Source: Dehalococcoidia bacterium
Lineage (GTDB): Bacteria > Chloroflexota > Dehalococcoidia > Tepidiformales > Tepidiformaceae
Assembly: GCA_022827945.1 (NCBI GenBank)
Contig: JAJEIT010000094.1
Location: 1 to 64,000, forward strand
Reading direction: 5' to 3'
DNA: 64,000 bases
A model generated the notes under the pieces. That model saw only the letters and a program-made list of their open reading frames with translations. It made no database searches and was not told where the DNA came from. Made by a program: the position numbers and the translations under genes. Positions 12,499-29,271 of this stretch are shown one piece after another (positions within the stretch are counted from its first letter, which is position 1; each line of letters starts with the position of its first letter).

Positions 12499-13202
12499 GC
12501 GCCCCCGGTGGCAGCGGCGCGCAGGCATTCGCCGGCGTGTCGTCGCGCCCCGCCCTCATCGCCCACGGAGGCGGGAACGGTCCCGGCGCCGTCCGCGACG
12601 CGCTCGCCGCCAGCGCCCCCTTCATCGAGGTCGACCTCTGGCTCCACCACGGACGCCTGGAGGCCCGCCACGAGCGCCGCCTCCCCGGCCCCCTGCCTAT
12701 CCTCTATGAACTCTGGTACCTCATGCCCGCACCCCGCCCGCCCTACTACCTCGAGGATCTGCTGCTCGCCTGCGAAGGCCGAGCCAGCGTCCTGCTCGAC
12801 CTGAAGAACGGTCTCGGCAAGCTTGCGCCCATCCTCCGCCAGGCCCTCGCGGCCTTCGGGAAGAGCGTCGACGTGGTCGCCTCCTCGCCGAACTGGCCCC
12901 TGCTCCGCGAGGTCAAGGTCGCATGCCCCTGGCTCGACCTGTACTACTCAATCGACACTCCCGACCAGTTCGACCTGTTCCAGTCCGTGATGCTGCACGA
13001 CCCCCTGCCCGCCGGCGTCTCCTGCCGCCACACGCTGCTCGACCGGAACACCGTTCGCGACTTTCACGATGCCGGGCTCGCCGTAGCTGCCTGGACCGTC
13101 GATGACGGCGACCGTGCCCGCGACCTCCTGCGGTGGGGCGTCGACGCCATCACCACCAACCGGGTCGAGGAGATACGCGCCGCGCTCCCCCAGTCCCCGT
13201 GA
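12495..13202 (+). CDS. Glycerophosphodiester phosphodiesterase-like protein
   Basis: ALIAHGGGNGP, IEVDLWLHHGRLEARHERRL, AWTVDDGDRARDLLRWGVDAITTNRV. Confidence 0.72.
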   Translation: MSAPGGSGAQAFAGVSSRPALIAHGGGNGPGAVRDALAASAPFIEVDLWLHHGRLEARHERRLPGPLPILYELWYLMPAPRPPYYLEDLLLACEGRASVLLDLKNGLGKLAPILRQALAAFGKSVDVVASSPNWPLLREVKVACPWLDLYYSIDTPDQFDLFQSVMLHDPLPAGVSCRHTLLDRNTVRDFHDAGLAVAAWTVDDGDRARDLLRWGVDAITTNRVEEIRAALPQSP

Positions 13203-14407
13203 GCGCTGCTCGCCCCCTCGCCGTCTACGTCCACATCCCCTTCTGCGTGCGCGTCTGCGGCTACTGCGACTTCAACACCTACGCCGGAATGGACGCCGTC
13301 AAGGACGCCTACACCGCCGCCGTCGTCGCCGAGATCGAGGCCTGGGCGCCCCGCATCGCCGGCCGCGAGGTGACATCCGTCTCCTTCGGCGGAGGCACTC
13401 CCGGCGAGATGGCGGCCGGCTCGCTGGTCGCCATCATCGATGCCGTCCGCGCTGCCGCCGCCCTTGCCCCCGCCGCCGAGATCAGCCTTGAGGCCAACCC
13501 CGGCACTACCTCCGCCCCGGCCCTCCGCGACCTTGCCCGTGCCGGTGTGAATCGCATCTCCTTCGGCGCCCAGAGCTTCGACGCCTCGGAGCTCGCCTTC
13601 CTCGACCGCGTCCACACCCCCGAAGCCACCTCCGCCTCCCTCCACCTCGCCCGCGAGGCCGGCATTCGCAGCGTCAACCTCGACCTGATGTACGGCCTCC
13701 CCGACCAGACCCCGGCGGCCTGGCAGGCGACCCTCGGGCGGGCCCTCGACCTCGCCCCGGAACACCTCTCCCTGTACGCCCTCACCGTGGAGCCGGGCAC
13801 GCCCCTCGACGGGCGGGTCGAACGCGGCGAGGTCGCCCCTCTCGACCCCGACGCGGTGGCCGCCATGTATGAGGACGCTGCCGAACGTCTAGCCGCCTCC
13901 GGCTATCGCCAGTACGAGCTTTCGAACTGGGCTCGACCCGGCCACGAGAGCCGTCACAACCTCGTCTACTGGACCTGGGGCGACTACCTCGGCATCGGCG
14001 CGGGCGCTCACGGTTTCCTCGATGGCGAGCGCTTCGAGAATGTCGCCCACCCTCGCGCCTACATCGACGCCGTCCGCCACGATGGACGCGCCATCGCCGA
14101 GGCCGTCCGCCCCGACGCCGCCACCTCCATGTCGGACTGGCTCGCCCTCCGCCTGCGCCTCGTCGAAGGCTTCAACGCAGCCGCGTTCGCCACGACCTTC
14201 GGCGAGTCCCTCGAGGCCGCCGCCGGACCGCCCCTCGACGCCTGCCGCGCCGCCGGCATCCTCGAAGACTCCGGTGGCCGCCTGCGCCTCACCCCCCGGG
14301 GCCGCCTCCTCCACAACGAGGTTGCGGTGCAGGTCATGCTCCACCTTCAGGAACGCGCTGAAGAGTCCCCCTCCGTCACGCGAGGTGGCGCCTCAGGCGT
14401 GGCATAA
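13199..14407 (+). CDS. hemW: Radical SAM heme chaperone / oxygen-independent coproporphyrinogen oxidase-like
   Basis: VYVHIPFCVRVCGYCDFNTY, SFGGGTPG, EANPGT, ISFGAQSF, NLDLMYGLPDQT. Confidence 0.93.
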   Translation: MSAARPLAVYVHIPFCVRVCGYCDFNTYAGMDAVKDAYTAAVVAEIEAWAPRIAGREVTSVSFGGGTPGEMAAGSLVAIIDAVRAAAALAPAAEISLEANPGTTSAPALRDLARAGVNRISFGAQSFDASELAFLDRVHTPEATSASLHLAREAGIRSVNLDLMYGLPDQTPAAWQATLGRALDLAPEHLSLYALTVEPGTPLDGRVERGEVAPLDPDAVAAMYEDAAERLAASGYRQYELSNWARPGHESRHNLVYWTWGDYLGIGAGAHGFLDGERFENVAHPRAYIDAVRHDGRAIAEAVRPDAATSMSDWLALRLRLVEGFNAAAFATTFGESLEAAAGPPLDACRAAGILEDSGGRLRLTPRGRLLHNEVAVQVMLHLQERAEESPSVTRGGASGVA

Positions 14408-14420
14408 TCGCTGCACGCCC

Positions 14421-16283
14421 ATGTACGTCGTTGGTACCGCTGGTCACGTCGACCACGGCAAGAGCGCCCTCGTGCGCGCCCTCACCAACATCGACCCCGA
14501 CCGCCTCCGTGAGGAGAAGGAACGCGGACTCACCATCGACCTCGGCTTCGCCTGGCTTGCCCTGCCCTCGGGACGCGACATAAGCATCGTGGACGTCCCC
14601 GGGCACGAGCGTTTCATCAAGAACATGCTCGCCGGCGCCGGTGGCGTCGATCTCGCCCTCCTCGTCGTCGCCGCCGACGAGGGTCCCATGCCCCAGACCC
14701 GCGAGCACCTCGCCATCCTCGACCTGCTCGACGTCCCTGCAGGTGTCGTCGCCATCACCAAGTGCGACCTCGCCGAGGAGGAGTACGTCGACCTCGTGGA
14801 GGAGGAGATCGCCGACACGCTCGCCGGCTCCCGCCTCGAAGGAGCCCCCATCGTGCGCACCTCCGCGACGACCGGCGATGGCCTCGACGACCTAGTCGCC
14901 ACCCTCGACACGGCGCTCGACGCCACGCCCCCGAAACGCGACCTCGGTCGCCCCCGCCTCCCCATCGATCGCGCCTTCACCATCCAGGGGTTCGGCGCCG
15001 TCGTCACCGGCACGCTGCTGGACGGTAGCCTCGAAGTGGGCCAGGAGATCGAGGTCCAGCCCGGCGGCCTCCGGGGACGCATCCGCGGCCTCCAGCGTCA
15101 CGGCGAGAAGGTCGAGCGCCTCGCGCCCGGAACGCGCGCCGCCGTCAACGTGAGCGGCATCCGCACGGAGCAGCTGCGGCGCGGCATGGTGCTCGCCGCT
15201 CGCGACGTGCTCAAACCCGCCTACGCCCTCGACGTTCGCCTCAAGGCGACCGACATCCTCACCCACCCCCTAGCCCACGACGCGGGCGTGACCTTCCTCT
15301 CCGCCACCGCCGAGTCCGAGGCGAAGGTTCGCTTCCTCGACCGCGAAGAGCTTGCCCCCGCGGAGACGGGCTGGGCCCAGCTCGTGCTCGAGACCCCCGT
15401 CGCCGTCCTCGCGCACGATAGCTGCATCGTGCGTACCCCCAACGAGACCGTCGCCGGCGGGCCCATCGCCGCCGTCAACCCGCGCCGCCACCGCCGCAAC
15501 CACCTCCCGACGCTCGAAGGGCTGGAGCGCCAGCTCGAAGCGCCCCCCGCCGAGCGTCTCGCCGACCTCCTCGCCGCCGGCCCCCAGCCCCGCGCCGCCC
15601 TCGGCGCCGCCCTCGGTCTCGAGTCTGACGAAGCCAGCGCTGCCGCCGCCGACCTCGTGGCCTCCGGCCGCGCCAGCGACCACGGCCCCCTCCTCGCCGG
15701 CCGCCCCTGGCTCGCCGCCGCCGCCGCTGACCTCGCTGCGGCCGTCCGCGACTACCTCGCGGAGCATCCCCTCCGCCCCGCCGCTCCCCGCGAGCATCTT
15801 CGCAGCCGACTCGCCCTCGAACCGCAGCTCTTCGAGCTCGTCGCCGCCGAGGGTGTCGCTACCGGCGACCTCGTCGAGCGCCCGGGTGGCGGGTTCCACC
15901 CGCCCGGCTACACCGTCAGCCTCACCGCCGCCCAGCAGGAGCAGGCCGACGCGTTCATCGACGCCGTCAGGGCCGGGGGCGCCAGCCCCCCCACCGAGTC
16001 CCTCCCCCCTTCCGACCTGCTCGCTTACCTCGCCGGTGCGGGACTGGTCGAGGACACGGGCTCGGGCGTCGTCTTCGAGTCCGGGGTCTACGCGGACCTT
16101 GTCGGGCGGATCCGCGAGCACATCGAGGCGAACGGCTCTGTCAGCCTCGCCGAGGTGCGGGACCTCTTCGGCACGAGCCGCAAGTACGCTCAGGCCCTGC
16201 TTGAGCACCTCGACGCAACCCACGTGACCCGCCGCACCGGCGATGTCCGAGTCCTCCGCTCCCCCCTGGAGGCCCGCCGGTGA
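14421..16283 (+). CDS. selB: Selenocysteine-specific translation elongation factor
   Basis: GTAGHVDHGKSALVRALTNIDPDRLREEKERGLTIDLGFAWL; long C-terminal winged-helix region ending SLAEVRDLFGTSRKYAQALLEHLD. Confidence 0.92.
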   Translation: MYVVGTAGHVDHGKSALVRALTNIDPDRLREEKERGLTIDLGFAWLALPSGRDISIVDVPGHERFIKNMLAGAGGVDLALLVVAADEGPMPQTREHLAILDLLDVPAGVVAITKCDLAEEEYVDLVEEEIADTLAGSRLEGAPIVRTSATTGDGLDDLVATLDTALDATPPKRDLGRPRLPIDRAFTIQGFGAVVTGTLLDGSLEVGQEIEVQPGGLRGRIRGLQRHGEKVERLAPGTRAAVNVSGIRTEQLRRGMVLAARDVLKPAYALDVRLKATDILTHPLAHDAGVTFLSATAESEAKVRFLDREELAPAETGWAQLVLETPVAVLAHDSCIVRTPNETVAGGPIAAVNPRRHRRNHLPTLEGLERQLEAPPAERLADLLAAGPQPRAALGAALGLESDEASAAAADLVASGRASDHGPLLAGRPWLAAAAADLAAAVRDYLAEHPLRPAAPREHLRSRLALEPQLFELVAAEGVATGDLVERPGGGFHPPGYTVSLTAAQQEQADAFIDAVRAGGASPPTESLPPSDLLAYLAGAGLVEDTGSGVVFESGVYADLVGRIREHIEANGSVSLAEVRDLFGTSRKYAQALLEHLDATHVTRRTGDVRVLRSPLEARR

Positions 16284-17422
16284 CGCTGCGCATGGATACC
16301 GTCGCCGCCGAGCTTCCGGCCCTCATCGCCCGCCACGAGGAGACTCGCGCTGCGGCCGGCGAGGCCATCGAGGGTGCCCGCAATGCCCTCCGCGAGTGGA
16401 GCGACGACCCCGTGGCCGCCTCCGCCCGCATCGAGCAGGCGCTCGGCGGGCAGGCCGTTCCCTACGCCCTCGCCGAGGACGACCCCGCCGCCACCTGCCC
16501 CACCCCCTCCCTCGGCCCCGTCACCGTCATCGGCGTCGATGGCTCCTCCATCACCCCCAATCGCTTCTCCACCGTCCGCTGTTACGCCATCAACATCGGT
16601 CACGCCCTCCTCCCCTACGGCGTCCCCGTCGAGCCTTCCCTCGACGCCGTCGCCGAGGTCGGCCTCGATGGCGACCTCCTCGAAGGCTCGGCCGGCATGC
16701 GCCAGGCCCCGCGTGGCCTCGCCACGCGTCTCCTCCGCGACGTGCGTGAGCTGGAGTGCGGCGTCGAGCTCGCTGTCCCGGCTGCCGAGGCCGGCCCCGC
16801 CGTCCTCCTCCTCGATGGCACCCTCCTCCCCTGGGACCTCCACACCCGCCAGGCGTCCGATGAGGCCCTCGCTCCCTACCGCAACCGCACGATCGAAGCC
16901 CTCGACCGCATTCGCGCCTGTGGCGAACCCCTCAGCATGGGCGCCTATATCTCCGCATCCGCCGCCCGCGAGGTCGTGGCTGCCCTCGACGTGCTCGCCC
17001 CGTCCCCGCCCTCCGCCCCGCCCCTCACCGATGGCGACGTGTTTCGCGGCCTGCTGCAGCCCGGCGAACGCAGCGCCATCTTCCACTCGCGCAGCAGCCG
17101 CCGTGGGAGCGTCGAGTCCCTGCTTCCCGGCCACGAGGTCGCCCTCTTCTACCTCCGCGTCGGCGACGACATTGCCCGCGTCGAGCTCCCCGCCTGGGCG
17201 GCCACGCCCACCCAGGTCGACCGCCTCCACGCCACCCTCGTCGACCAGTGCGAGCGCTGCGAGGGATACCCGCGCGCCCTACAGGAGGCGCACGAGCAGG
17301 CCGTCATCTCTGCCTCGGACCGTGAGCAGTTCGAGCGCCTGCTTGACCGCCTCGCCGGCGACGCTGGCATTCGCGCGCCCCTCAACGGCAAGCAGCAGAG
17401 CAAGCGGAGGAGGTCGATCTGA
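16280..17422 (+). CDS. nurA: NurA-family DNA repair nuclease
   Basis: VIGVDGSSITPNRF, LLLDGTLLPWDLH, YPRALQEAHEQAVIS; GTGA overlap with selB; alternative ATG at 16292. Confidence 0.82.
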   Translation: MTLRMDTVAAELPALIARHEETRAAAGEAIEGARNALREWSDDPVAASARIEQALGGQAVPYALAEDDPAATCPTPSLGPVTVIGVDGSSITPNRFSTVRCYAINIGHALLPYGVPVEPSLDAVAEVGLDGDLLEGSAGMRQAPRGLATRLLRDVRELECGVELAVPAAEAGPAVLLLDGTLLPWDLHTRQASDEALAPYRNRTIEALDRIRACGEPLSMGAYISASAAREVVAALDVLAPSPPSAPPLTDGDVFRGLLQPGERSAIFHSRSSRRGSVESLLPGHEVALFYLRVGDDIARVELPAWAATPTQVDRLHATLVDQCERCEGYPRALQEAHEQAVISASDREQFERLLDRLAGDAGIRAPLNGKQQSKRRRSI

Positions 17423-17451
17423 GCGAGACTTGCCGCGTCGTCAACGCCAGC

Positions 17452-18003
17452 GTGCGCGCCTTCGAGTGCGCCTACTCCCGCTACACGAGCGAGCCCTTCG
17501 CCCTCGGCCAGATGCTCGTCGTGCGCGAAGGGCGCTGTGACACTTTCGGCGTCGTGACCGGCAGCGAGAGCGGCCCCGACGACCCCTCCCGTCCCCTCGT
17601 CCCCCGTGGCGATCCCGGGCAGAGCGCTGCCGCCGTCATGGCGGACAACCCCGAGATCGAGATGCTCCTGCGCACAACCCTCACCGTCGCCATCTGCGGG
17701 CACATCGACCGCGAGGTCGCCCGCCCCGCCCTCCCGCCCATGCCCCCGCCCCTTCTCGCCGAGGTGCAGGCCGCTACCGACGAGGAGAAGGTCCGCATCG
17801 CCGACGAGGGGCGCTTCCTCGTCCCCCTCCTCGCCAACCCCGCCGCCGACGATGCCGTCGTCGCCGCCGCCATCCGCGAGGTCGCCCGCGCTGCCGGTCC
17901 CGGGGAGCGCCCCTTCCTCGTCGCGGCCGGCAAGGAGCTCGCGCGCCTCCTCAAGGCCGAACCTTCCCGCCTCACGAGTATCCTCCGAGCGGTGGAACCA
18001 TGA
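17452..18003 (+). CDS. HAS-barrel-like HerA-associated protein
   Basis: FECAYSRYTSEPFALGQMLVVREGRCDTFGVVTGSESG resembles a HAS barrel; sits between nurA and herA; frame extends upstream to a possible CTG start at 17419 overlapping the nurA stop. Confidence 0.6.
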   Translation: MRAFECAYSRYTSEPFALGQMLVVREGRCDTFGVVTGSESGPDDPSRPLVPRGDPGQSAAAVMADNPEIEMLLRTTLTVAICGHIDREVARPALPPMPPPLLAEVQAATDEEKVRIADEGRFLVPLLANPAADDAVVAAAIREVARAAGPGERPFLVAAGKELARLLKAEPSRLTSILRAVEP

Positions 18004-19712
18004 GTGACGCGAACCCCGACGCCACCCGGCCCCTCGGCGTCGTCGTCGGAGGCTCCCTCACGAAGGGCCTCAAGGTGCGGCTCGACCCCGGCCAGACCGC
18101 CCAGCTGGGCCAGTACGCGAAAACCGATGTGGGCGGCGGCCTCAGCATCCTCGGCATGGTCACCGACATCACCCTCAAGTCCGTCGATTCCGGTCCCACC
18201 GTCTGGCCCCCCGGCGACGACGAACCGGCGCTGTTGCGCGAGGTCCTGCAGGACACCGGCGTCTACACCGCCCTCGCCGTCGACCCCTACCTCGAACTCG
18301 GCGAGAACGGCGAGGAGCCGGCCCGCGCCCGCCGCCTCCCCAGCCACTTCTCCGCCGTCCATCCCGCCGACCAGGACACCCTCGACCGCGCCTTCGCCAC
18401 CGACGGCCCCAACATCCCCGTGGGCGCCCCCCTCGGCATGGACGAGCTCCAGGTGGGAGTGGACTTCGAGCGCCTCTTTGAGCGCTCCGCCGGCGTCTTC
18501 GGCAAGAGCGGCACGGGCAAGAGCGTCCTCGTCCTCCACCTGCTCGACGCCATGCTCACGCGCTCGACTGCCGCCGCAACCAACAGCGACCGCACCGTCG
18601 CCCTCGTCTTCGACATGCACAACGACTACGGCTGGGAGATGAAGTTCCAGGGCCCCTCGACCAGCCGCCTGCGCTCCCTCAAGCAGCGCCACCAGACCGA
18701 CATCGAGCTCTACACCCTCGAGTCCCGCGCCGCCCGCTCCGACGGCCAGATCCTCATCGGCACGCGCGACATCCAGCCCGACGACCTCGAAGTCCTGCGC
18801 GAGACCCTCGACCTCTCCGACCTCGCCGTCGATGCCGCCCATGCCTGCCGCCGCCGCTTCGGCCCCGGCTGGATCGACGAGATCCTCGCCGACGAGCCTG
18901 CCGCCGCCCTCGTCGACAGGCTCTGGCGCGAGCCTCCCGAGGGCGACGTCAACTGGTCGCAGGTCGCCGCCCAGATGGGGTACCCCGGCTCCCTCGAGAG
19001 CCTTCGCCGCCGCATGGAGCGCCTCACCCGCCGCGAGTTCGTCCGCACCGAGGGCTCCCAGTTCGGCGACGTCATCGAGCACGTCGTGCGCTCCCTCCAG
19101 GGCGGCAAGAGCGTCGTCGTCCAGTTCGGTCGCTTCGGGAACGACCTCGTCAGCTACATGCTCGTCGCCAACATGCTCTCCCGCCGTATCTGGGAGCGGT
19201 ATCGCGACAGCACCGAGCGCTCCGAGGAGCGCGAAGCCCCCAACCGCCTCGTCATCGTCATCGAGGAAGCCCACAAGTTCGTCGACCGCTCCCTCGCCGG
19301 CCAGAGCATCTTCGGCCAGATCGCCCGCGAGCTGCGCAAGTACAACGTCACCCTTCTCGTGATCGACCAGCGTCCCAGCCAGATAGACCCGGAGGTCCTC
19401 TCCCAGATCGGCACGAAGTTCACGCTCCAGCTCGACAGCGACAACGACGTCGAGGCCATCGTCGGTGGCGTTGCCGGCAGGAGCGGCCTCCGCCAGGTCA
19501 TCGCCGCCCTCGAGAGCAAGCGCCAGGCGCTCGTCTTCGGCCACGCCCTGCCCATGCCCGTCGTCGTCCAGACCCCCGAGGCCACCAACGCCGACTCCGC
19601 CCGCGCCTCCCTGCGCGCCCGGCTCGGCCTCCCCGAGCAGGAAGAAACGAGCCCCGCCGCCGCCCTCTTTGGCGCTCCGCCCGATTCCGCGCCGCCGGCG
19701 GACGAGCGGTGA
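18000..19712 (+). CDS. herA: HerA-family DNA translocase (DUF87 ATPase)
   Basis: Walker A FGKSGTGKSVLV; Walker B-like RLVIVIEEAHKFVD; FGQIARELRKYNVTLLVIDQRPSQIDPEVLSQIGTKF. Confidence 0.92.
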   Translation: MSDANPDATRPLGVVVGGSLTKGLKVRLDPGQTAQLGQYAKTDVGGGLSILGMVTDITLKSVDSGPTVWPPGDDEPALLREVLQDTGVYTALAVDPYLELGENGEEPARARRLPSHFSAVHPADQDTLDRAFATDGPNIPVGAPLGMDELQVGVDFERLFERSAGVFGKSGTGKSVLVLHLLDAMLTRSTAAATNSDRTVALVFDMHNDYGWEMKFQGPSTSRLRSLKQRHQTDIELYTLESRAARSDGQILIGTRDIQPDDLEVLRETLDLSDLAVDAAHACRRRFGPGWIDEILADEPAAALVDRLWREPPEGDVNWSQVAAQMGYPGSLESLRRRMERLTRREFVRTEGSQFGDVIEHVVRSLQGGKSVVVQFGRFGNDLVSYMLVANMLSRRIWERYRDSTERSEEREAPNRLVIVIEEAHKFVDRSLAGQSIFGQIARELRKYNVTLLVIDQRPSQIDPEVLSQIGTKFTLQLDSDNDVEAIVGGVAGRSGLRQVIAALESKRQALVFGHALPMPVVVQTPEATNADSARASLRARLGLPEQEETSPAAALFGAPPDSAPPADER

Positions 19713-19945
19713 GCGACGTTCCCCGCGCCCACGCCGAGTGGGACGCTGGCGACATGGGCTGCGGCGAGGTTATCGTGATGCTTCGATCCCGCATGAGGGG
19801 ACTGGCCGCGGGCGAGGTGCTGAAGCTCACCGTGCGCGACCTTGGCGCTCCCGAGGACATGCCAGCATGGTGCCGCATGACTGAACGCCGCCTCCTCCGC
19901 GCCGACCACCCCCACTACTGGATCGAACAGCGCCAAAACCCCTGA
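19709..19945 (+). CDS. TusA-like sulfurtransferase, variant (CG instead of CP)
   Basis: AEWDAGDMGCGEVIVMLRSRMRGLAAGEVLKLTVRDLGAPEDMPAWCRMTERRLL; GTGA overlap with herA stop. Confidence 0.78.
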   Translation: MSDVPRAHAEWDAGDMGCGEVIVMLRSRMRGLAAGEVLKLTVRDLGAPEDMPAWCRMTERRLLRADHPHYWIEQRQNP

Positions 19946-19966
19946 ATCAAGGAGACACCCGCTCCC

Positions 19967-20329
19967 GTGCCAGGCAAGTTCTGCGTCAACCTCACCTCTT
20001 CCGGCAACGACCCCGACAAGGCGACCGTCGGCTTCGTCGTCGCCAACGCCGCCCTCGGCTCCGAGAAGGAGACCCTCGTGTTCCTCAGCACCGAGGGCGT
20101 CCGCCTCGCCGAGAAGGGCTACGCCGACGCCATCCGCGAGGACGGCTTCCTGCCGCTCACCGAGCTCATGGACGCCTTCACCGGCGGCGGCGGGACCATC
20201 TACGTCTGCGCGCCCTGCTTCAAGAAGCGCGGGCTCGACGAGAACAACCTCGTCGAAGGCGCGACCATCGTCGGTGGGGCGATGCTCGTGGAGTTCCTCT
20301 CCGACGGCGCCCCCAGCGTCACGTACTAG
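19967..20329 (+). CDS. DsrE-family protein
   Basis: GGTIYVCAPCFKKRGLDENNLVEGATIVGGAMLVEFLSDGAPSVTY. Confidence 0.8.
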   Translation: MPGKFCVNLTSSGNDPDKATVGFVVANAALGSEKETLVFLSTEGVRLAEKGYADAIREDGFLPLTELMDAFTGGGGTIYVCAPCFKKRGLDENNLVEGATIVGGAMLVEFLSDGAPSVTY

Positions 20330-20345
20330 GCGCGAAACCCACCCC

Positions 20346-21890
20346 GTGAGCGGTTCGGCCAGTCCCGGCGATCCAGTCGAGCGCCACCCGTTCGCGCCCG
20401 ACGCCGGCTTCGACGGCGGCGACCTGGACTGCGGCGGCGGCCTGCTGCTGCTGATCCGCCGCAATATCGACCCCCTCGCCCCCGGCGGCCTCCTCGAAAT
20501 CCGCTCGACCGAATCCACGGTCGAGATCGAGCTGCCCGCCTGGTGCCGGATGACCGGTAACGAGCTCGTCTCCTGGACGAAGCAGGGCGAACAGCGCAGC
20601 TACCTCGTATCGAAGGGCCCCCTCGCCGAGCGGCGGCCGGCCACCCCGCCGCCGTCCCCCGGCCCGGTTCGCGACCGGCCCCTTGTCGAAGTCTCCGTCC
20701 CCGACTCGCTCCCCGAACCGGCCCCCGCCCCCGCCGTCGAGCCGCTCTCCGTCATGGGCATCGGCAGCTGGCCCCGCCCCCGCTGGATGCTCCAGGCCAT
20801 GCACGACCACCTCGAAGGCCGCCTCGACGGCGACGCTTTCCACGAGACCGCCGACGACGCCGTCCGCCTCGTCCTCGACGCCCAGCGTCGCGCCGGCGTC
20901 GATGTCGTTACGGACGGCGAGCAGCGGCGCGACAACTACGCCAGCTTCGTCGGTGGCCTCCTCGATAACTGCCAGCTCATCCCCCTCAGCGACCTCACCG
21001 CCATGGTCGACGACCCCGACGAGTTCCACCGCGAGCTGCGCGCCCTCGACGTGCCCGCCGAGGACGTGCGCCACCCCGTCGTCCACGGCCCCCTGGGCCG
21101 CAGCCGCCCCCTCGCCGCCCACGAGCTCGCCTTCGCCCGCTCCTGCGCCGGTACGCCCGTCAAGGTCGCCCTCCCCGGCCCCTACCTGCTGACCCGCACC
21201 ATGTGGCTCGACTGCCTGCGCGAGCGCCCCTACGCGACCCGCGACGACCTGGCCGTCGATGTCGTGCGCGTCCTGCGCGAGGAGTTGCACGCCCTCCTCG
21301 CCGGCGGCGCCGCGCTCGTGCAGTTCGACGAGCCCGTGCTCACCGAGGTCGTCTACGGCGAGGTCGGGGCGAAGCGCAGCTTCATGTGCGGCGCTCTCAG
21401 CGAGAAGCTCACGCCCGAGCGCGAGCTCGCCTTCGCCGCCGACCTCCTCCGCGAGACCGTGCGCGGCCTCCCCGCCGAGCGGCTCGGCCTGCACGTGTGT
21501 CGCGGCAACTGGACGCCGGACGAGTCCGCCGCCCTCTCCGGCGACTACCGGCCCCTGCTCGGGTTCCTCGGCGACGCTCCCGTCGGGAGCCTGTTCCTTG
21601 AGCTCTGCACCCCCCGCGCCGGCGAACTGGAGCTCCTGCGCGACCTCCCCGGCGACAAGCGCATCGGCGTGGGCGTGGTGAACCCGAAGGATCCCGCGGT
21701 CGAGTCCGTCGAGGTGATCCGGGAGGGCATCGCCCGCGCCGTCAACCTCTTCGGGAAGGAGCGCGTCCTGCTGGCGCCCGACTGCGGCTTCGCCACGTTC
21801 GCCGACAACCCGGTCGCTTCCGCCCGCACCGCCGAGGCGAAGCTTGCCGCCGTCGTCGAGGCCCGGGACGGGGTCGTGGATAGTGAATAG
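20346..21890 (+). CDS. Fusion of TusA-like domain and MetE-type (cobalamin-independent methionine synthase C-terminal) Zn methyl/alkyltransferase domain
   Basis: N-term GGDLDCGGGLLLLIRRNIDPLAPGGLLEIRST...ELPAWCRMTGNELV; C-term IGSWPRPRWM, DGEQRRDNYASFV, HVCRGNW, LFLELCTPRAGELE, LLAPDCGFATF. Confidence 0.82.
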   Translation: MSGSASPGDPVERHPFAPDAGFDGGDLDCGGGLLLLIRRNIDPLAPGGLLEIRSTESTVEIELPAWCRMTGNELVSWTKQGEQRSYLVSKGPLAERRPATPPPSPGPVRDRPLVEVSVPDSLPEPAPAPAVEPLSVMGIGSWPRPRWMLQAMHDHLEGRLDGDAFHETADDAVRLVLDAQRRAGVDVVTDGEQRRDNYASFVGGLLDNCQLIPLSDLTAMVDDPDEFHRELRALDVPAEDVRHPVVHGPLGRSRPLAAHELAFARSCAGTPVKVALPGPYLLTRTMWLDCLRERPYATRDDLAVDVVRVLREELHALLAGGAALVQFDEPVLTEVVYGEVGAKRSFMCGALSEKLTPERELAFAADLLRETVRGLPAERLGLHVCRGNWTPDESAALSGDYRPLLGFLGDAPVGSLFLELCTPRAGELELLRDLPGDKRIGVGVVNPKDPAVESVEVIREGIARAVNLFGKERVLLAPDCGFATFADNPVASARTAEAKLAAVVEARDGVVDSE

Positions 21891-21958
21891 TGAGTGGTGA
21901 ATGGTGAGTAGCCGGACGAAGTCACCATCCACTATCCACTAGTCACTATCCACTACTA
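21876..21958 (+). repeat. 7-bp-period repeat (TAGTGAR/TGGTGAR) followed by inverted copies
   Basis: gtggatagtgaatagtgagtggtgaatggtgagtag ... caccatccactatccactagtcactatccactac. Confidence 0.85.
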
Positions 21959-22319: not shown

Positions 22320-23066
22320 CTAGCGCCGGCGGCGGGCGAAGGTGTAGCTGCCCAGCAGGATTGCCAGGGCGGTCACACCGAGGATGGCAGCCAGCGAGGT
22401 GCTGGTGCTGGTCGTGCTGGTGGCGAGGCCGGTGCCGGTGTCGCCGGCTTCCGGAGCCATGTCGTCCATGTCATCCATGTCGTCCATGGGCTCCTCGGGC
22501 ATTTCGCCCATGTCGTCGTCGCCCATGTCCTCGTCGCCCATGTCGTCCGTCGGGCAGTCGTCGCCCATGTCATCCATGGGCTCCGCAGGCTCGGACGGCT
22601 CCGCGGGCTCCGCGGGCTCGTCGGGCATGTCGCCCCCGCCCATCTCGTCCGGGCACTCGTCGCCCATGTCATCCATGGGCTCCTCGGGCATGGCGGAAGA
22701 GACGGTCAGGTTGAGGTCGGTGCGGCCGCCACCGCTCCAGGTTCCAGATTCAGCGGCGTCGTAGCCCATGACCTGGAAGGAAACGGTGTCGCCGGCATCG
22801 GCGCAGGTGTCGGGAACGTCGACCGCGTAGGTCGATCCGGCGGCGCTTTCGATGACGGTGGCAGAACCACACTCGGCGCCGTTGACGATAGCGGTGACCG
22901 ACGTGCCGGCGGCCGCGGCTTCACCATCGATGGTGACGGCGCCGGCGAAGCGGTGAGGCGGGCCAGACGGCTGGGCCTCGGCCACCTCTCCGCTGAAGAG
23001 GCCGGCGAGGCCGAGCAGCATGACTGCCGCAACGCCTCCCCCGAGCCACTTGAGAATCCTGGTCAT
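22320..23066 (-). CDS. Secreted, membrane-anchored protein with acidic Met/Asp repeat region
   Basis: N-terminal signal sequence, Ig-like domain (GTSVTAIVNGAECGSATV), MDDMGDECPDEMGGGDMPDEP... repeats, C-terminal TM plus RRRR. Confidence 0.75.
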   Translation of the reverse strand: MTRILKWLGGGVAAVMLLGLAGLFSGEVAEAQPSGPPHRFAGAVTIDGEAAAAGTSVTAIVNGAECGSATVIESAAGSTYAVDVPDTCADAGDTVSFQVMGYDAAESGTWSGGGRTDLNLTVSSAMPEEPMDDMGDECPDEMGGGDMPDEPAEPAEPSEPAEPMDDMGDDCPTDDMGDEDMGDDDMGEMPEEPMDDMDDMDDMAPEAGDTGTGLATSTTSTSTSLAAILGVTALAILLGSYTFARRRR

Positions 23067-23112
23067 TCGGTTTTGCTCCTTTAGCTGTCCGTATGGCTGA
23101 CGCCCGGGACCC

Positions 23113-23156
23113 CTCCCGTGCCCCCGCCCCCGCTCGAGGCGGGGACGGGGACGGGA
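23113..23156 (-). terminator. GC-rich hairpin between the two surface-protein genes
   Basis: tcccgtgcccccgcccccgctcgaggcggggacggggacggga. Confidence 0.45.
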
Positions 23157-23170
23157 GTGGTGGCGGACAG

Positions 23171-25228
23171 TTACTCGACGATCACGAAGTACGCGTCGCC
23201 GTTGCTGAGCGATGTGAGGGTGTTGCCACCCGGGACATCGGCCGCATTCGGGAAGTAGCCGTCCCAGGTGCCGGACCCGGTGTTGTACGACCAGATGGCC
23301 GAAACACCCATGTCGGAGCCGGCGGACGGATCAGCTCCGTCCTCACCGTTCCAGACCACGAGGTTCTGGCCGGAAACGAGCTGGTTGTTCCACGTGGCCG
23401 GTGGGGCCTCGGGCTCGGGCTCTTCCTCGACCACGGGCTCGGGGCCGACGGCCACGGTGATGACCGCACGGGCATCGCCGGACCTGACGACGAACACCAC
23501 GTTCCCCTCAAGGGAGGAAGCCAGGAAGGTGAACTTCGCCTCGCCGTTCGCCGTGTCTCCCTTCTCACCATCGAGGATGGCGCCGCCGCCCTCGACCTTG
23601 GTGACGGAGACCGGCTGCGTGCCGACGCGGTTACCCGCGTCGTCCGTGACAGTGAGGGTGACCTCGATCTCGTCCAGCGCGTCGATGCGCGAGGGCGCGT
23701 CGTGGCTGATGGAGTCCGAGGGGCCTGCGACCGTCATGACGACCTCGGCCTTCAGGGTCGTGGTCGCGTCAACAACCAGCTGGAAGTTGAGGGTGTGATC
23801 GCCACGGGTGGCGGCAGCGGGCGCCTCAGCGGCGCTGCTGACACGAACCACGCACTGGCCAGCAGCGTTGGTCCCGGCGTCGTTACCGCAGTACACGGCA
23901 CCCTTCGGAGGGTCGTCGGCGGTGTTGGCGTCGTCGTCCTGTACGAGAGCAACGGCCACAGCGACAGCATCGTCCACGTCAGGCGTGATGACCTTGTCGA
24001 CGACCGGCTGCGTGATGTCCGCGCCCTTGACGGGGCGGTCATCGGCGTCGGTCACGGTGAAGGTCACGAAGGCCCCGCCACCAAGGTTGATGGAGCTCTG
24101 CGGAGCATCGGCAGCGAGATTCGCGGCCTCACCGAAGAAGGTCACCTCGGTGGAACCGGCACCCAGCTTCCCGACCAGGACGGTGATGGTAGCCGTCCCC
24201 GGAACCCCACCACTCAGAGTGGCGGTCGCCTGCCCATCAGCGTTGGTCTCGGAGGTGGAGCAAGTGTTCTGGGGGTCGGCGTCTTCAGCACACACGACCT
24301 TGCCGTTCGGCGTGATGAAGCTGACATTGATGTCACCCACGTAGGGCTTCGCCACTGGCGTCGTGTCGTCCATCACGGTCACGACGATGGTCGATGTACC
24401 CGTACCGGCCGCGGCAGTCTCGTCGCCCTTCGCCGGAGCAACAGAGAAGGAAGCCGGCTGCGGCTCAGGATCCGCAACGGTCAAAACGATGTCTGAGGTA
24501 GTTGTGGCACCGGGAGTCTGGTGGGTGAAGTAGAGGTGCTGGCCCGTCTTGGACTCTTCTCCCACGGCAACCCGGATGGTCATCAGACCCGTCGCGACGT
24601 TGCGATCACAGTTATCGCCGTCGCTGCAGGTGAGGGTGGTCTTCCCGTTCGCTGCGAAGGAGCCGGTGGCCCCGTCGTCACTCAGTGAGAACCGCTGGCG
24701 GCCCGTGAGGTTGACGGTCACATCCTTGTCTTCGCCAGGGGTGACAGTGCCATCTTCCGTGAGGGTGACTGATGGCGTCGTGATCTGCGCGGTTGCTATC
24801 GCGTCGTCGGCGCAGGAGCTGTCATCACTTGCATACGCCGTGATGTCGTACTTTGTGCTCGACTTCAGGTCATTCGCCGCGTAGGTCCCTACGGAACCGT
24901 CCGTTCCATCCACAGCCCCCGTCTGACAGGTAGGGGTGGTGTCGTCGCCATCCTCTACCACCGTCAGATACCACGCGGTGATGGCTGGATCCGCAGGCGC
25001 GGGCGCGAGGTAGCCCGTGAGGGTGACCGTGACGTCGAGGTCGTTGTCGGTGTCGTCATTGGAGAATTCGTACGCATACTCCGCGGACAGGGCCGGCCCG
25101 TTCTGGGCGTCGGCCGCATTCGAGTTGGTGAGGACGCCGCTGAAGGCGACGGCCGCCACCATTGCTACGAGCGCCAGGAGCGCGGCGGACTTCCAGCCGG
25201 CAATGGCGCTAATTGGGTTCTTCTTCAA
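23171..25228 (-). CDS. Secreted surface protein with invasin-type (Big_1-like) Ig domains
   Basis: TTG start with AAGGAG SD; signal peptide; NADGQATATLSGGVPGTATITVLVG; DSISHDAPSRIDALDEIEVTLTVTDDAGNRVGTQPVSV; C-term GQNLVVWNGEDGADP...GDAYFVIVE. Confidence 0.8.
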   Translation of the reverse strand: MKKNPISAIAGWKSAALLALVAMVAAVAFSGVLTNSNAADAQNGPALSAEYAYEFSNDDTDNDLDVTVTLTGYLAPAPADPAITAWYLTVVEDGDDTTPTCQTGAVDGTDGSVGTYAANDLKSSTKYDITAYASDDSSCADDAIATAQITTPSVTLTEDGTVTPGEDKDVTVNLTGRQRFSLSDDGATGSFAANGKTTLTCSDGDNCDRNVATGLMTIRVAVGEESKTGQHLYFTHQTPGATTTSDIVLTVADPEPQPASFSVAPAKGDETAAAGTGTSTIVVTVMDDTTPVAKPYVGDINVSFITPNGKVVCAEDADPQNTCSTSETNADGQATATLSGGVPGTATITVLVGKLGAGSTEVTFFGEAANLAADAPQSSINLGGGAFVTFTVTDADDRPVKGADITQPVVDKVITPDVDDAVAVAVALVQDDDANTADDPPKGAVYCGNDAGTNAAGQCVVRVSSAAEAPAAATRGDHTLNFQLVVDATTTLKAEVVMTVAGPSDSISHDAPSRIDALDEIEVTLTVTDDAGNRVGTQPVSVTKVEGGGAILDGEKGDTANGEAKFTFLASSLEGNVVFVVRSGDARAVITVAVGPEPVVEEEPEPEAPPATWNNQLVSGQNLVVWNGEDGADPSAGSDMGVSAIWSYNTGSGTWDGYFPNAADVPGGNTLTSLSNGDAYFVIVE

Positions 25229-25427: not shown

Positions 25428-25762
25428 TACCACTGAGAAAGGAGATAGTACGGCTACTAGTGACGACTAACGGTCTCGTATTCCTGCCACGGATAAAAAT
25501 CATTTGTAGGAAATAGACGACAAATGATAGGGGCACCTGGTCGCGGGGGTGTTACCACGGAGAAAGGAGGGGCGTAGTGAATAGTGAGTAGTGAATAGTG
25601 ACTGGTGATCAGTGCCCGTCGGGGATTTGACACGGAGAAAGGAGAAGGGGGCTCGCGAAGGTGGTGGCCGGCGCCCGGCGGAGCTTTAACACGGAGAAAG
25701 GAGGAGGCACCGGCTACAGGGAGGGGGATGGCCGGCTGGTGTCTACCACGGAGAAAGGAGGG
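25428..25762. repeat. Five interspersed copies of (C)ACGGAGAAAGGAG
   Basis: cactgagaaaggag (about 25432), ccacggagaaaggagg (about 25556), cacggagaaaggag (about 25630), aacacggagaaaggagg (about 25690), ccacggagaaaggagg (about 25747). Confidence 0.8.
25574..25614 (+). repeat. 7-bp-period repeat TAGTGAA
   Basis: gtagtgaatagtgagtagtgaatagtgactggtgatcagtg. Confidence 0.85.
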
Positions 25763-26754: not shown

Positions 26755-26795
26755 CGAGCCACTACCCACCATCCACTATCCACTATCCACTACCC
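26755..26795. repeat. 7-bp-period repeat at the secDF 3' end
   Basis: cgagccactacccaccatccactatccactatccactaccccc. Confidence 0.8.
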
Positions 26796-29271
26796 CCGCC
26801 GCCGCCTCCTGCGGCTCGCCCTCGCCCTCACCCCGCGACGTGACCCGCCGGAAGAAGCGGCCGATGTCGTGGTTCTCCCACGCCACCAGCACCTGCGCCG
26901 CCACGAAGATGCTGCTGTACGTCCCCGCGATCACCCCCACCAGCAGCACCAGCAGGAAGTTCTGGATGGTCACGCCGCCGATCAGGAACATCGCGATGAT
27001 CGTCAGCACCGTCACGAACGAGGTGTTGATGGAACGCACGAGCGTCTCCGTCAGGCTCACGTTCACCGCCTCCGCGAACGGCACTAGCGTGTCCCGCGAA
27101 GTCACCTCGCGCACGCGGTCGAACACGACGATCGTGTCGTGAACGGAGAAGCCGATCACCGTCAGGATCGCCACGATGAAGGCCGCATCGACCTCCGTGC
27201 CCGCCACCTTCGCCAGCAGTGAGAAGAGCCCCAGCACGATCACCGAGTCGTGTACGAGCGCGATCACCGCGCAGAGTCCGTACCGCCACGCCGCCCGCTG
27301 CCGCCGGAAGGCGAACGCCACGTAGATCAGGATCGCCACCGCGGCCGCCGCCACCGCCAGCGTCGCGTCGCGCGCGATCTCCGTCGAGACCGTTCCCGAG
27401 ACTGTCGCGAAGTCCAGCCGCCGAACCGTCCCGAACTCCTCCTCCAGCGCCGCCAGGATGTCGTCGATCTCGCCGGGCGGCACGGGACCCTCCCCCGCCT
27501 CCAGCGGAGGCGCGCCCTCCAGCTCGATCGTCCGCACCAGGTACGTGTTGAACCCCGCCCCCTGCACGCGCGCCTCCTCGTGCCCGAGCCGGGCCAGCGC
27601 ATCGCGCAGCTCCTCCGGCTCCACCACGCGCACGGGTTCCGGCACCGGCGGCTCCGCCTCTTCCGTCCCCTCTTCGCCGTCTGTCTCCGCCACCGCCGCC
27701 TCTTCCTGCGCGAACTGCAGCGTGAACGTCGACCCGCCCGTGAACTCGATGCCCGCCTTCAGCGGGGGCGGCACCAGCAGCATCACCGCCGCCGCCACGA
27801 ACACGACCAGCGAGAGCCCCAGCGTGACCCAGCGGCGCTGGGCGAACGCGATGAACGTCGAGCGCGGGGTGGCCGGCGCTGGTTGGTCCTCGTCCTCGTC
27901 CTCGGCGGCCTGCGCCGACAGCGGCTCGGCGTTGAAGAGCCAGCGCGAACGCGAGATCCGCGTTCCCACGAACAGCCGCAGGAATGTCCGCGTCACCACG
28001 ATCGCCGAGAACATGCTCACGGCCACGCCGATCGCCAGCGTGATCGCGAACCCGCGCACGAACGATGCCCCGAACTGGTCGCCGAACCAGAACAGGATGG
28101 CGCACGTGATGAACGTCGCGATGTTCGAGTCGCGGATGGATGGCCACGCCCGCCGGAAGCCCGTCTCGATCGCCGTCGCCAGCGGCCGGCCCCGGCGCAG
28201 CTCCTCCTTCATCCGTTCGAAGATGAGGATGTTCGCGTCGACGGCCATGCCCACCGAGAGGATGAACGCCGCGATCCCCGAGAGCGTGAGCGTGACCGGC
28301 CACAGCTTGAACACCGTCAGCGTGATCAGCGCGTAGACGATCAGGGCGAACGCCGCCAGCACCCCCGGCAGGCGGTAGTACAGGATCATGAACGCCAGCA
28401 CCGCCAGCAGCCCGATCTCCGCCGCGTTCACCGAGGCCTTGACCGAGTCGTCGCCCAGCGAGGCGCTCACCTCGTTCGCCTGGATCGTGCGCAGCGGGAC
28501 CGGCAGGGCGCCCGCGTTCAGCTGCCGCGAGAGGTCGTTCGCCTCCGTGAAGGTGTCCAGCCCCGTGATCGTTCCCTGGTCCTCGATCACGCCCTGCACG
28601 ACCGCGTCCGATATCAGCTCGTTGTCGAGATAGACGAGCAGCCGTCTCCGCGGGTCCCCGATCGGGTGCTGGAGCGCCCTCGACGTGATCTGCCGCATGA
28701 GCTCGTTGCCCACGCCGGTGGTCTCGAAGTTCACGGCGTAGGTGGTGCCCCGGCGCTCCGGGTAGGTGTTGCTCTTCAGGTGCTGGCCCGTCATCGCGAT
28801 CTCGACCCCGTCGATGATCCCGCTGGCGGCCACGAGCTGGCTCTCGTCGTTGAAGATGCGGTACGACAGCGTCGCCGTGCGGCCGATGAGCCGCTCCGCG
28901 TCGGGAAGGCTCATCCCCGGCACCTGCACATCGAGCCGGTTCCCGCTCGCGATCTGGATCTCCGGCTCAACGACGCCGAAGGCGTCCACGCGCCGCTCGA
29001 TCACCTCCTTGGCGACCTCCAGCGACTCGGTCAGGTCACCCTCGAAGTCCGGCGGCGGCTCCGCCTGCAGCACGAGGTGCGCGCCGCCCTGGAGGTCGAG
29101 GCCCAGCCGCATCGTCTTGCGCTCGTAGTCGCCGATGCTGATGCCCCGGCCTTCCGGCCAGAAGTCGCCGGGCAGGTAGCGGCTCGGGGCGCTCGGCCAG
29201 ACCGCGAACAGGCAGAAGACGCTGACCGCGAGGATCGCCAGGAAGACGAAGGTGGTTGTGGGACTACGCAT
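26776..29271 (-). CDS. secDF: Protein translocase subunit SecDF (fused)
   Basis: SecD (GLDLQGGAHLVLQ, GMAVDANILIFERMKEE) and SecF (GIEFTGGSTFTLQF, GFSVHDTIVVFDRVRE) in one ORF. Confidence 0.93.
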   Translation of the reverse strand: MRSPTTTFVFLAILAVSVFCLFAVWPSAPSRYLPGDFWPEGRGISIGDYERKTMRLGLDLQGGAHLVLQAEPPPDFEGDLTESLEVAKEVIERRVDAFGVVEPEIQIASGNRLDVQVPGMSLPDAERLIGRTATLSYRIFNDESQLVAASGIIDGVEIAMTGQHLKSNTYPERRGTTYAVNFETTGVGNELMRQITSRALQHPIGDPRRRLLVYLDNELISDAVVQGVIEDQGTITGLDTFTEANDLSRQLNAGALPVPLRTIQANEVSASLGDDSVKASVNAAEIGLLAVLAFMILYYRLPGVLAAFALIVYALITLTVFKLWPVTLTLSGIAAFILSVGMAVDANILIFERMKEELRRGRPLATAIETGFRRAWPSIRDSNIATFITCAILFWFGDQFGASFVRGFAITLAIGVAVSMFSAIVVTRTFLRLFVGTRISRSRWLFNAEPLSAQAAEDEDEDQPAPATPRSTFIAFAQRRWVTLGLSLVVFVAAAVMLLVPPPLKAGIEFTGGSTFTLQFAQEEAAVAETDGEEGTEEAEPPVPEPVRVVEPEELRDALARLGHEEARVQGAGFNTYLVRTIELEGAPPLEAGEGPVPPGEIDDILAALEEEFGTVRRLDFATVSGTVSTEIARDATLAVAAAAVAILIYVAFAFRRQRAAWRYGLCAVIALVHDSVIVLGLFSLLAKVAGTEVDAAFIVAILTVIGFSVHDTIVVFDRVREVTSRDTLVPFAEAVNVSLTETLVRSINTSFVTVLTIIAMFLIGGVTIQNFLLVLLVGVIAGTYSSIFVAAQVLVAWENHDIGRFFRRVTSRGEGEGEPQEAAAGVVDSG

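Follow-up and report, generated by a model that had tools for sequence, protein, structure and literature searches.

HerA and NurA are described as a DNA end-processing pair, and the locus analysed here resembles it in that nurA, a gene for a HAS-barrel-like protein and herA occur in one cluster with the expected domains. Nothing in the pair itself is new, and the sulfur genes that follow it are a later addition. These begin with small TusA- and DsrE-family cysteine carriers in one operon, as in the known TusA/DsrE relays (TusA-TusBCD of E. coli; DsrE3A-TusA of Metallosphaera, PMC4175335), but here the TusA has CG in place of CPxP, a single DsrE-family gene is present and the final acceptor is probably an enzyme, of the MetE type and with zinc. 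The enzyme shares with the core methionine synthases (MesA-MesD/core-MetE; PMC7857596, PMC7005905) a MetE barrel without the folate domain and the same zinc and homocysteine residues. It differs from them by an N-terminal TusA domain, by travelling with tusA and dsrE, and by scoring below every curated methionine-synthase cut-off. A MetE-fusion of Phaeocystis antarctica (Rao et al. 2024 PNAS, cited in PMC12478193) is, going by its title, likewise a MetE-type fusion, for which the title claims widespread homologues. In the part of the literature covered, no paper was found joining TusA, DsrE and MetE as one system. The cassette of tusA, dsrE and TusA::metE (the trio) is a new combination of known parts, namely TusA, DsrE and core-MetE.

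Organization of the locus

The window is the whole stretch of 64,000 nucleotides that was analysed and is part of a 2.85-Mb assembly. The features considered are the following, in window coordinates.

13202-14407, + strand: hemW (context); TIGR00539 at 302 bits, above cut-off, and synteny; opens the conserved hemW-selB-nurA-X-herA block
14418-16283, + strand: selB (context); TIGR00475 at 323 bits, above cut-off; 4-bp overlap with nurA
16280-17422, + strand: nurA nuclease; PF09376 at 8e-23
17452-18003, + strand: 183-aa HAS-barrel-like protein (weakly supported label); class homologues match PF09378; hhalign against the HerA N-terminus; synteny
18000-19712, + strand: herA helicase with its own N-terminal HAS barrel; DUF87 PF01935 at 3e-20, PF09378 at 5e-6
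19709-19945, + strand: tusA, variant carrier; PF01206 at 3e-7; alignment of 24
19967-20329, + strand: dsrE; PF02635 at 2e-13; alignment of 27
20346-21890, + strand: TusA::core-MetE fusion; PF01717 (Meth_synt_2) at 1e-25, PF01206 at 1e-5; alignments of 13 and 24; fold match to MetE and MesD
20403-20615, + strand: TusA domain of the fusion, residues about 20-90, with Cys29 at 20430-20432; alignment of 24 fusions; predicted secondary structure
20745-21875, + strand: MetE catalytic barrel of the fusion, residues about 134-510; alignment of 24 fusions; residue roles per PMC7857596, matched by motif
21873-21956, no strand: REP-like palindrome at the 3' end of the cassette; 35-nt arms, 83% complementary; dispersed copies
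26776-29271, - strand: a gene taken to be secD/F (context); meets herA directly in genomes without the cassette

By ORF coordinates, 4-bp overlaps join selB to nurA (GTGA, 16280-16283), the HAS-like gene to herA (ATGA, 18000-18003) and herA to tusA (GTGA, 19709-19712), after which gaps of 21 bp and 16 bp separate tusA from dsrE and dsrE from TusA::metE. Together with the Pfam matches these coordinates bear out the arrangement given in an earlier sequence-only reading, which had described the three overlaps and the trio following within about 20 bp. The herA/tusA overlap is common to all 7 of the 7 trio-carrying genomes of the genus and is therefore not an assembly accident. It may be noted that an in-frame CTG at 17419 could lengthen the HAS-like ORF.

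The name HAS-barrel-like comes from the same reading and stands as a weakly supported one. The window protein itself has no Pfam match over cut-off, but 4 of 22 class homologues match the HAS barrel PF09378 (best 4e-5), and the profile of the protein aligns with the HerA N-terminus in hhalign (P 5e-4, probability 30%). By synteny the protein is a regular neighbour of herA within the class. Its profile found no convincing relative among solved structures, and the single-sequence structure model (pLDDT 51) was too poor for use.

The REP-like palindromic repeat is dispersed, with copies at 21873-21956, where it lies at the 3' end of the cassette, at 25575-25608 and at 26762-26791. For a 20-mer, 9 matches were counted genome-wide, with 0 for the reversed control. 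The interval from the cassette to secD holds, at 22320-25228 on the - strand, genes for two probably exported, repetitive proteins with a lower GC content and an altered skew. Of the genus loci that were checked, G005 alone has homologues of these proteins at the same place.

Separability of the nurA-herA block and the sulfur genes

Synteny of nurA, the HAS-like gene and herA, without the sulfur genes, extends across many families of the class (Chloroflexota, Dehalococcoidia), and in several class genomes hemW and selB lie just upstream of them. We read these three genes as a class-wide DNA-end-processing block. In several genera of the same family with a syntenic locus (e.g. G025, G021 and G030) herA directly meets a convergent secD, and the same order, with no trio in between, is found in the congeners G004 and G008. 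The trio stands between herA and secD only in the subclade of the window, that is in 7 of 9 genus genomes, and a full-length fusion (at least 60% identity) was not found in the sampled same-family genomes outside the genus. The fusion is found again at 60-74% identity in the families f2, f7, f15, f79 and f96 of the class, where tusA and dsrE adjoin it wherever the contig permits. The gene contexts of the trio in f2, f15, f79 and f96 are unrelated to the herA block, family f7 being the exception, and neither herA nor nurA was found near the trio in the other named loci. Also, PF09376 detected no NurA in the trio-bearing genomes G309 (one contig) and G250 (98% complete), and in G377 about 0.5 Mb lies between selB-nurA and the trio.

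In family f7 (L039, L117 and L118) the trio immediately precedes hemW, on the other side of the hemW-selB-nurA-herA block, or, at a contig end, the fusion is found there alone. In L039 and L117 the overlap between fusion and hemW is about 4 bp. The f7 fusions are 67-71% identical to that of the window as against 72-74% for the other families, and since they are no closer to it, the f7 arrangement appears to stem from another insertion close to this block. Its placement there possibly reflects chance or selection for co-expression.

The sequence-only reading had raised a sulfur-dependent nucleic-acid modification system tied to HerA/NurA. That the two gene sets form one functional system of this kind, acting on DNA or RNA, would agree with the retained herA/tusA overlap in the genus and with the f7 trio adjoining the same block. 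But the trio occurs without detectable NurA or half a megabase away from it, the other named loci have neither gene near the trio, and nurA-herA is found without the trio throughout the class, which makes a single system very improbable and is the kind of outcome that the reading itself had named as refuting the link. The fallback of that reading, a housekeeping thiol pathway sharing a transcript with repair genes, fits the evidence as regards the shared transcript, but a patchy mobile cassette is not housekeeping. We therefore regard nurA-HAS-like-herA and tusA-dsrE-TusA::metE as very probably two independent modules on one shared transcript.

One of the two congeners without the trio, G008 (locus L072), also lacks nurA and the HAS-like gene beside herA, and PF09376 finds no NurA in its genome. 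Its HerA is 63-64% identical to that of the window and the flanking genes are 66-92% identical, which suggests replacement or decay.

A selenium link was considered for the window and rejected, since the SelB next to the cassette in the window and in f7 is part of the conserved block, whether or not the trio is present. SelB scores above cut-off in 14 of 15 genomes checked, including relatives with and without the trio.

Distribution and probable mobility of the cassette

At least 507 relatives came out of a scan of named genomes. In 72 of the 80 best named loci among these, tusA, dsrE and the fusion lie on the same strand in the same order; the record titles of these loci span about ten phyla, some of which may be due to mis-binned MAGs. 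Those of the best 80 that depart from this are L144 (contig end), L168, L148 (tusA reversed) and five Binatota loci in which tusA was not detected. The cassette is also present in the culturable Duganella, Paraburkholderia, Nitrospirillum and Paracoccus. Identity between the window and G041 (family f7) is 71% for the fusion, as against about 41% for HerA and 47% for SelB, which points to horizontal transfer. A horizontally mobile cassette would then have been inserted behind herA in one subclade.

The fusion protein and its carriers

The zinc ligands H383, C385, E419 and C480 of the fusion follow the MetE-type HxC...E...C pattern and are invariant in the alignment of 24 fusions, as are S141, E192 and D328 of the amino-acid (homocysteine) pocket and the carrier Cys29 of the fused TusA domain. 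The roles of the zinc and homocysteine residues are those described for MetE (PMC7857596), with the correspondence to the fusion made by motif. By the same alignment and source, the Glu of the fusion matches MetE and not the Gln of MesA/MesC. All scores against the curated methionine-synthase families of NCBIfam are below cut-off, with 157 of 406 bits for PRK04326, 96 of 392 for PRK09121 and 78 of 258 for PRK00957. The AlphaFold model (pLDDT 74) has a TusA-like strand/helix arrangement, a poorly ordered linker and a barrel. The PDB entry that it matches best is 3rpd, a methionine synthase containing selenomethionine, and the fold also matches MetE and MesD. DUF1852 (MesX, the partner of MesD) had no match among the eight window proteins scanned with Pfam. 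In the fusion a TusA domain without CPxP stands in place of the MetE folate domain.

The small TusA scores 30.8 bits against PF01206 (cut-off 28.6), and the fused TusA domain 25.4 bits in the whole fusion and 29.3 in the genome search. In the small TusA, C18 and C55 are invariant in 24 sequences. The canonical CPxP motif is absent, with C followed by G in 24 of 24 small TusA and 24 of 24 fusions, so that persulfide carriage by these domains is not assured. The DsrE has a CxPC motif with C81 and C84 invariant in 27 sequences. As opposed to the three subunits of TusBCD/DsrEFH, the cassette has one DsrE-family gene, and the TusC model gives 14 bits (cut-off 94).

In L121, L122, L124, L125 and L040 we also observed shorter MetE homologues without TusA, about 39-46% identical, which by eye appear to be adjoined by OsmC-like and, in some cases, rhodanese-like genes. 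These are possibly a second sulfur-linked MetE branch.

Neighbouring genes and possible reactions

The partners of the cassette vary between lineages and the trio is constant. On pFER4 of Paracoccus ferrooxidans a SufS-type cysteine desulfurase, selA and trxB lie beside the cassette. The selA in this locus (L225, 9587-11955) is genuine by TIGR00474 and, with trxB, directly follows the fusion, and L193 has a SelB gene. In Binatota a Cys/Met-metabolism PLP enzyme and an alpha/beta hydrolase, which we take to be metY and metX, lie next to dsrE-TusA::metE; these loci are close relatives of one another and are counted as one case. A PhnD-type binding protein is found in 16 loci, in many Proteobacteria between dsrE and the fusion, and in L159, where the genes were tested, it is accompanied by a permease and an ATPase. 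Other loci have a transglutaminase-like exported protein, or an exported protein of unknown type with a small membrane protein.

The fusion could be a further core methionine synthase, in which a non-folate methyl donor would reach homocysteine via the TusA domain or DsrE. The invariance of every MetE zinc and homocysteine residue, the MetE-type Glu, the fold matches to MetE and MesD and the metX-like and metY-like neighbours in Binatota are all in line with this. But no methyl source is seen near the cassette, and a different candidate for methionine synthase is often present in carriers, namely MetH in the genome of the window, full MetE in G277 and S-methyl_trans proteins in 8 of 8 carriers checked. 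We consider a further methionine synthase possible but on the unlikely side. Its stricter form, the fusion as sole methionine synthase, is not supported in view of the other candidates and is unlikely in the window genome with its MetH.

Alternatively, the fusion may make homocysteine at the zinc site from TusA-borne sulfur and activated homoserine. No convincing Cys/Met gamma-synthase was found in ten Chloroflexota genomes, only weak aminotransferase-like matches, and the HcyBio route was not found in ten genomes. Relatives without the trio give the same weak matches, so that the missing classical gamma-synthase shows no correlation with the cassette. Homocysteine formation would suit a sulfur relay fused to a homocysteine pocket, the SufS-type desulfurase in Paracoccus and the metX-like gene (O-acetylhomoserine synthesis) in Binatota, but the Binatota loci also have a metY-like gene, and we give this reaction little probability. 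The exported and transport partners (PhnD-type in 16 loci, the transglutaminase-like and the other exported protein) would instead agree with a cassette that serves the import of an organosulfur or related compound and its dealkylation or detoxification. Yet these partners change between lineages, none is seen beside the trio in the Chloroflexota loci read, and the amino-acid pocket is kept in full, so that uptake and detoxification also appears rather improbable.

We prefer to read the cassette as a system that moves horizontally and in which sulfur carriers are coupled to a zinc thiol transferase with a substrate of the homocysteine/methionine type. Sulfur from a desulfurase would be held as persulfide on the TusA and DsrE cysteines, which would pass it to the fused TusA domain. 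This domain, in place of the MetE folate domain, would be the carrier of the second substrate, and the MetE-type zinc site would move sulfur or a methyl/methylthio group to or from a homocysteine/methionine-type amino-acid thiol. For this scheme as a whole, in which relay, substrate and reaction are all inferred, we see somewhat less than an even chance. Against it stand the MetH of the window genome, which makes the fusion dispensable for methionine there, and the missing CPxP of the TusA domains. The wider proposal of a new zinc thiol transferase family, with fused and free TusA-type carriers delivering sulfur or methyl in a persulfide-dependent homocysteine/methionine route across about ten phyla, is made tentatively and is less likely than not.

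Implications

Setting aside the link to DNA repair saves effort. In the cassette, sulfur carriers and a MetE-type enzyme keep together in a tightly conserved way; every catalytic residue of the enzyme is kept, no function assigned to the cassette was found, and it is testable in culturable hosts. If the group it transfers were shown, the MetE superfamily would gain a further type of second-substrate delivery, and the cassette could explain the supply of sulfur or methyl to methionine in some uncultured lineages.
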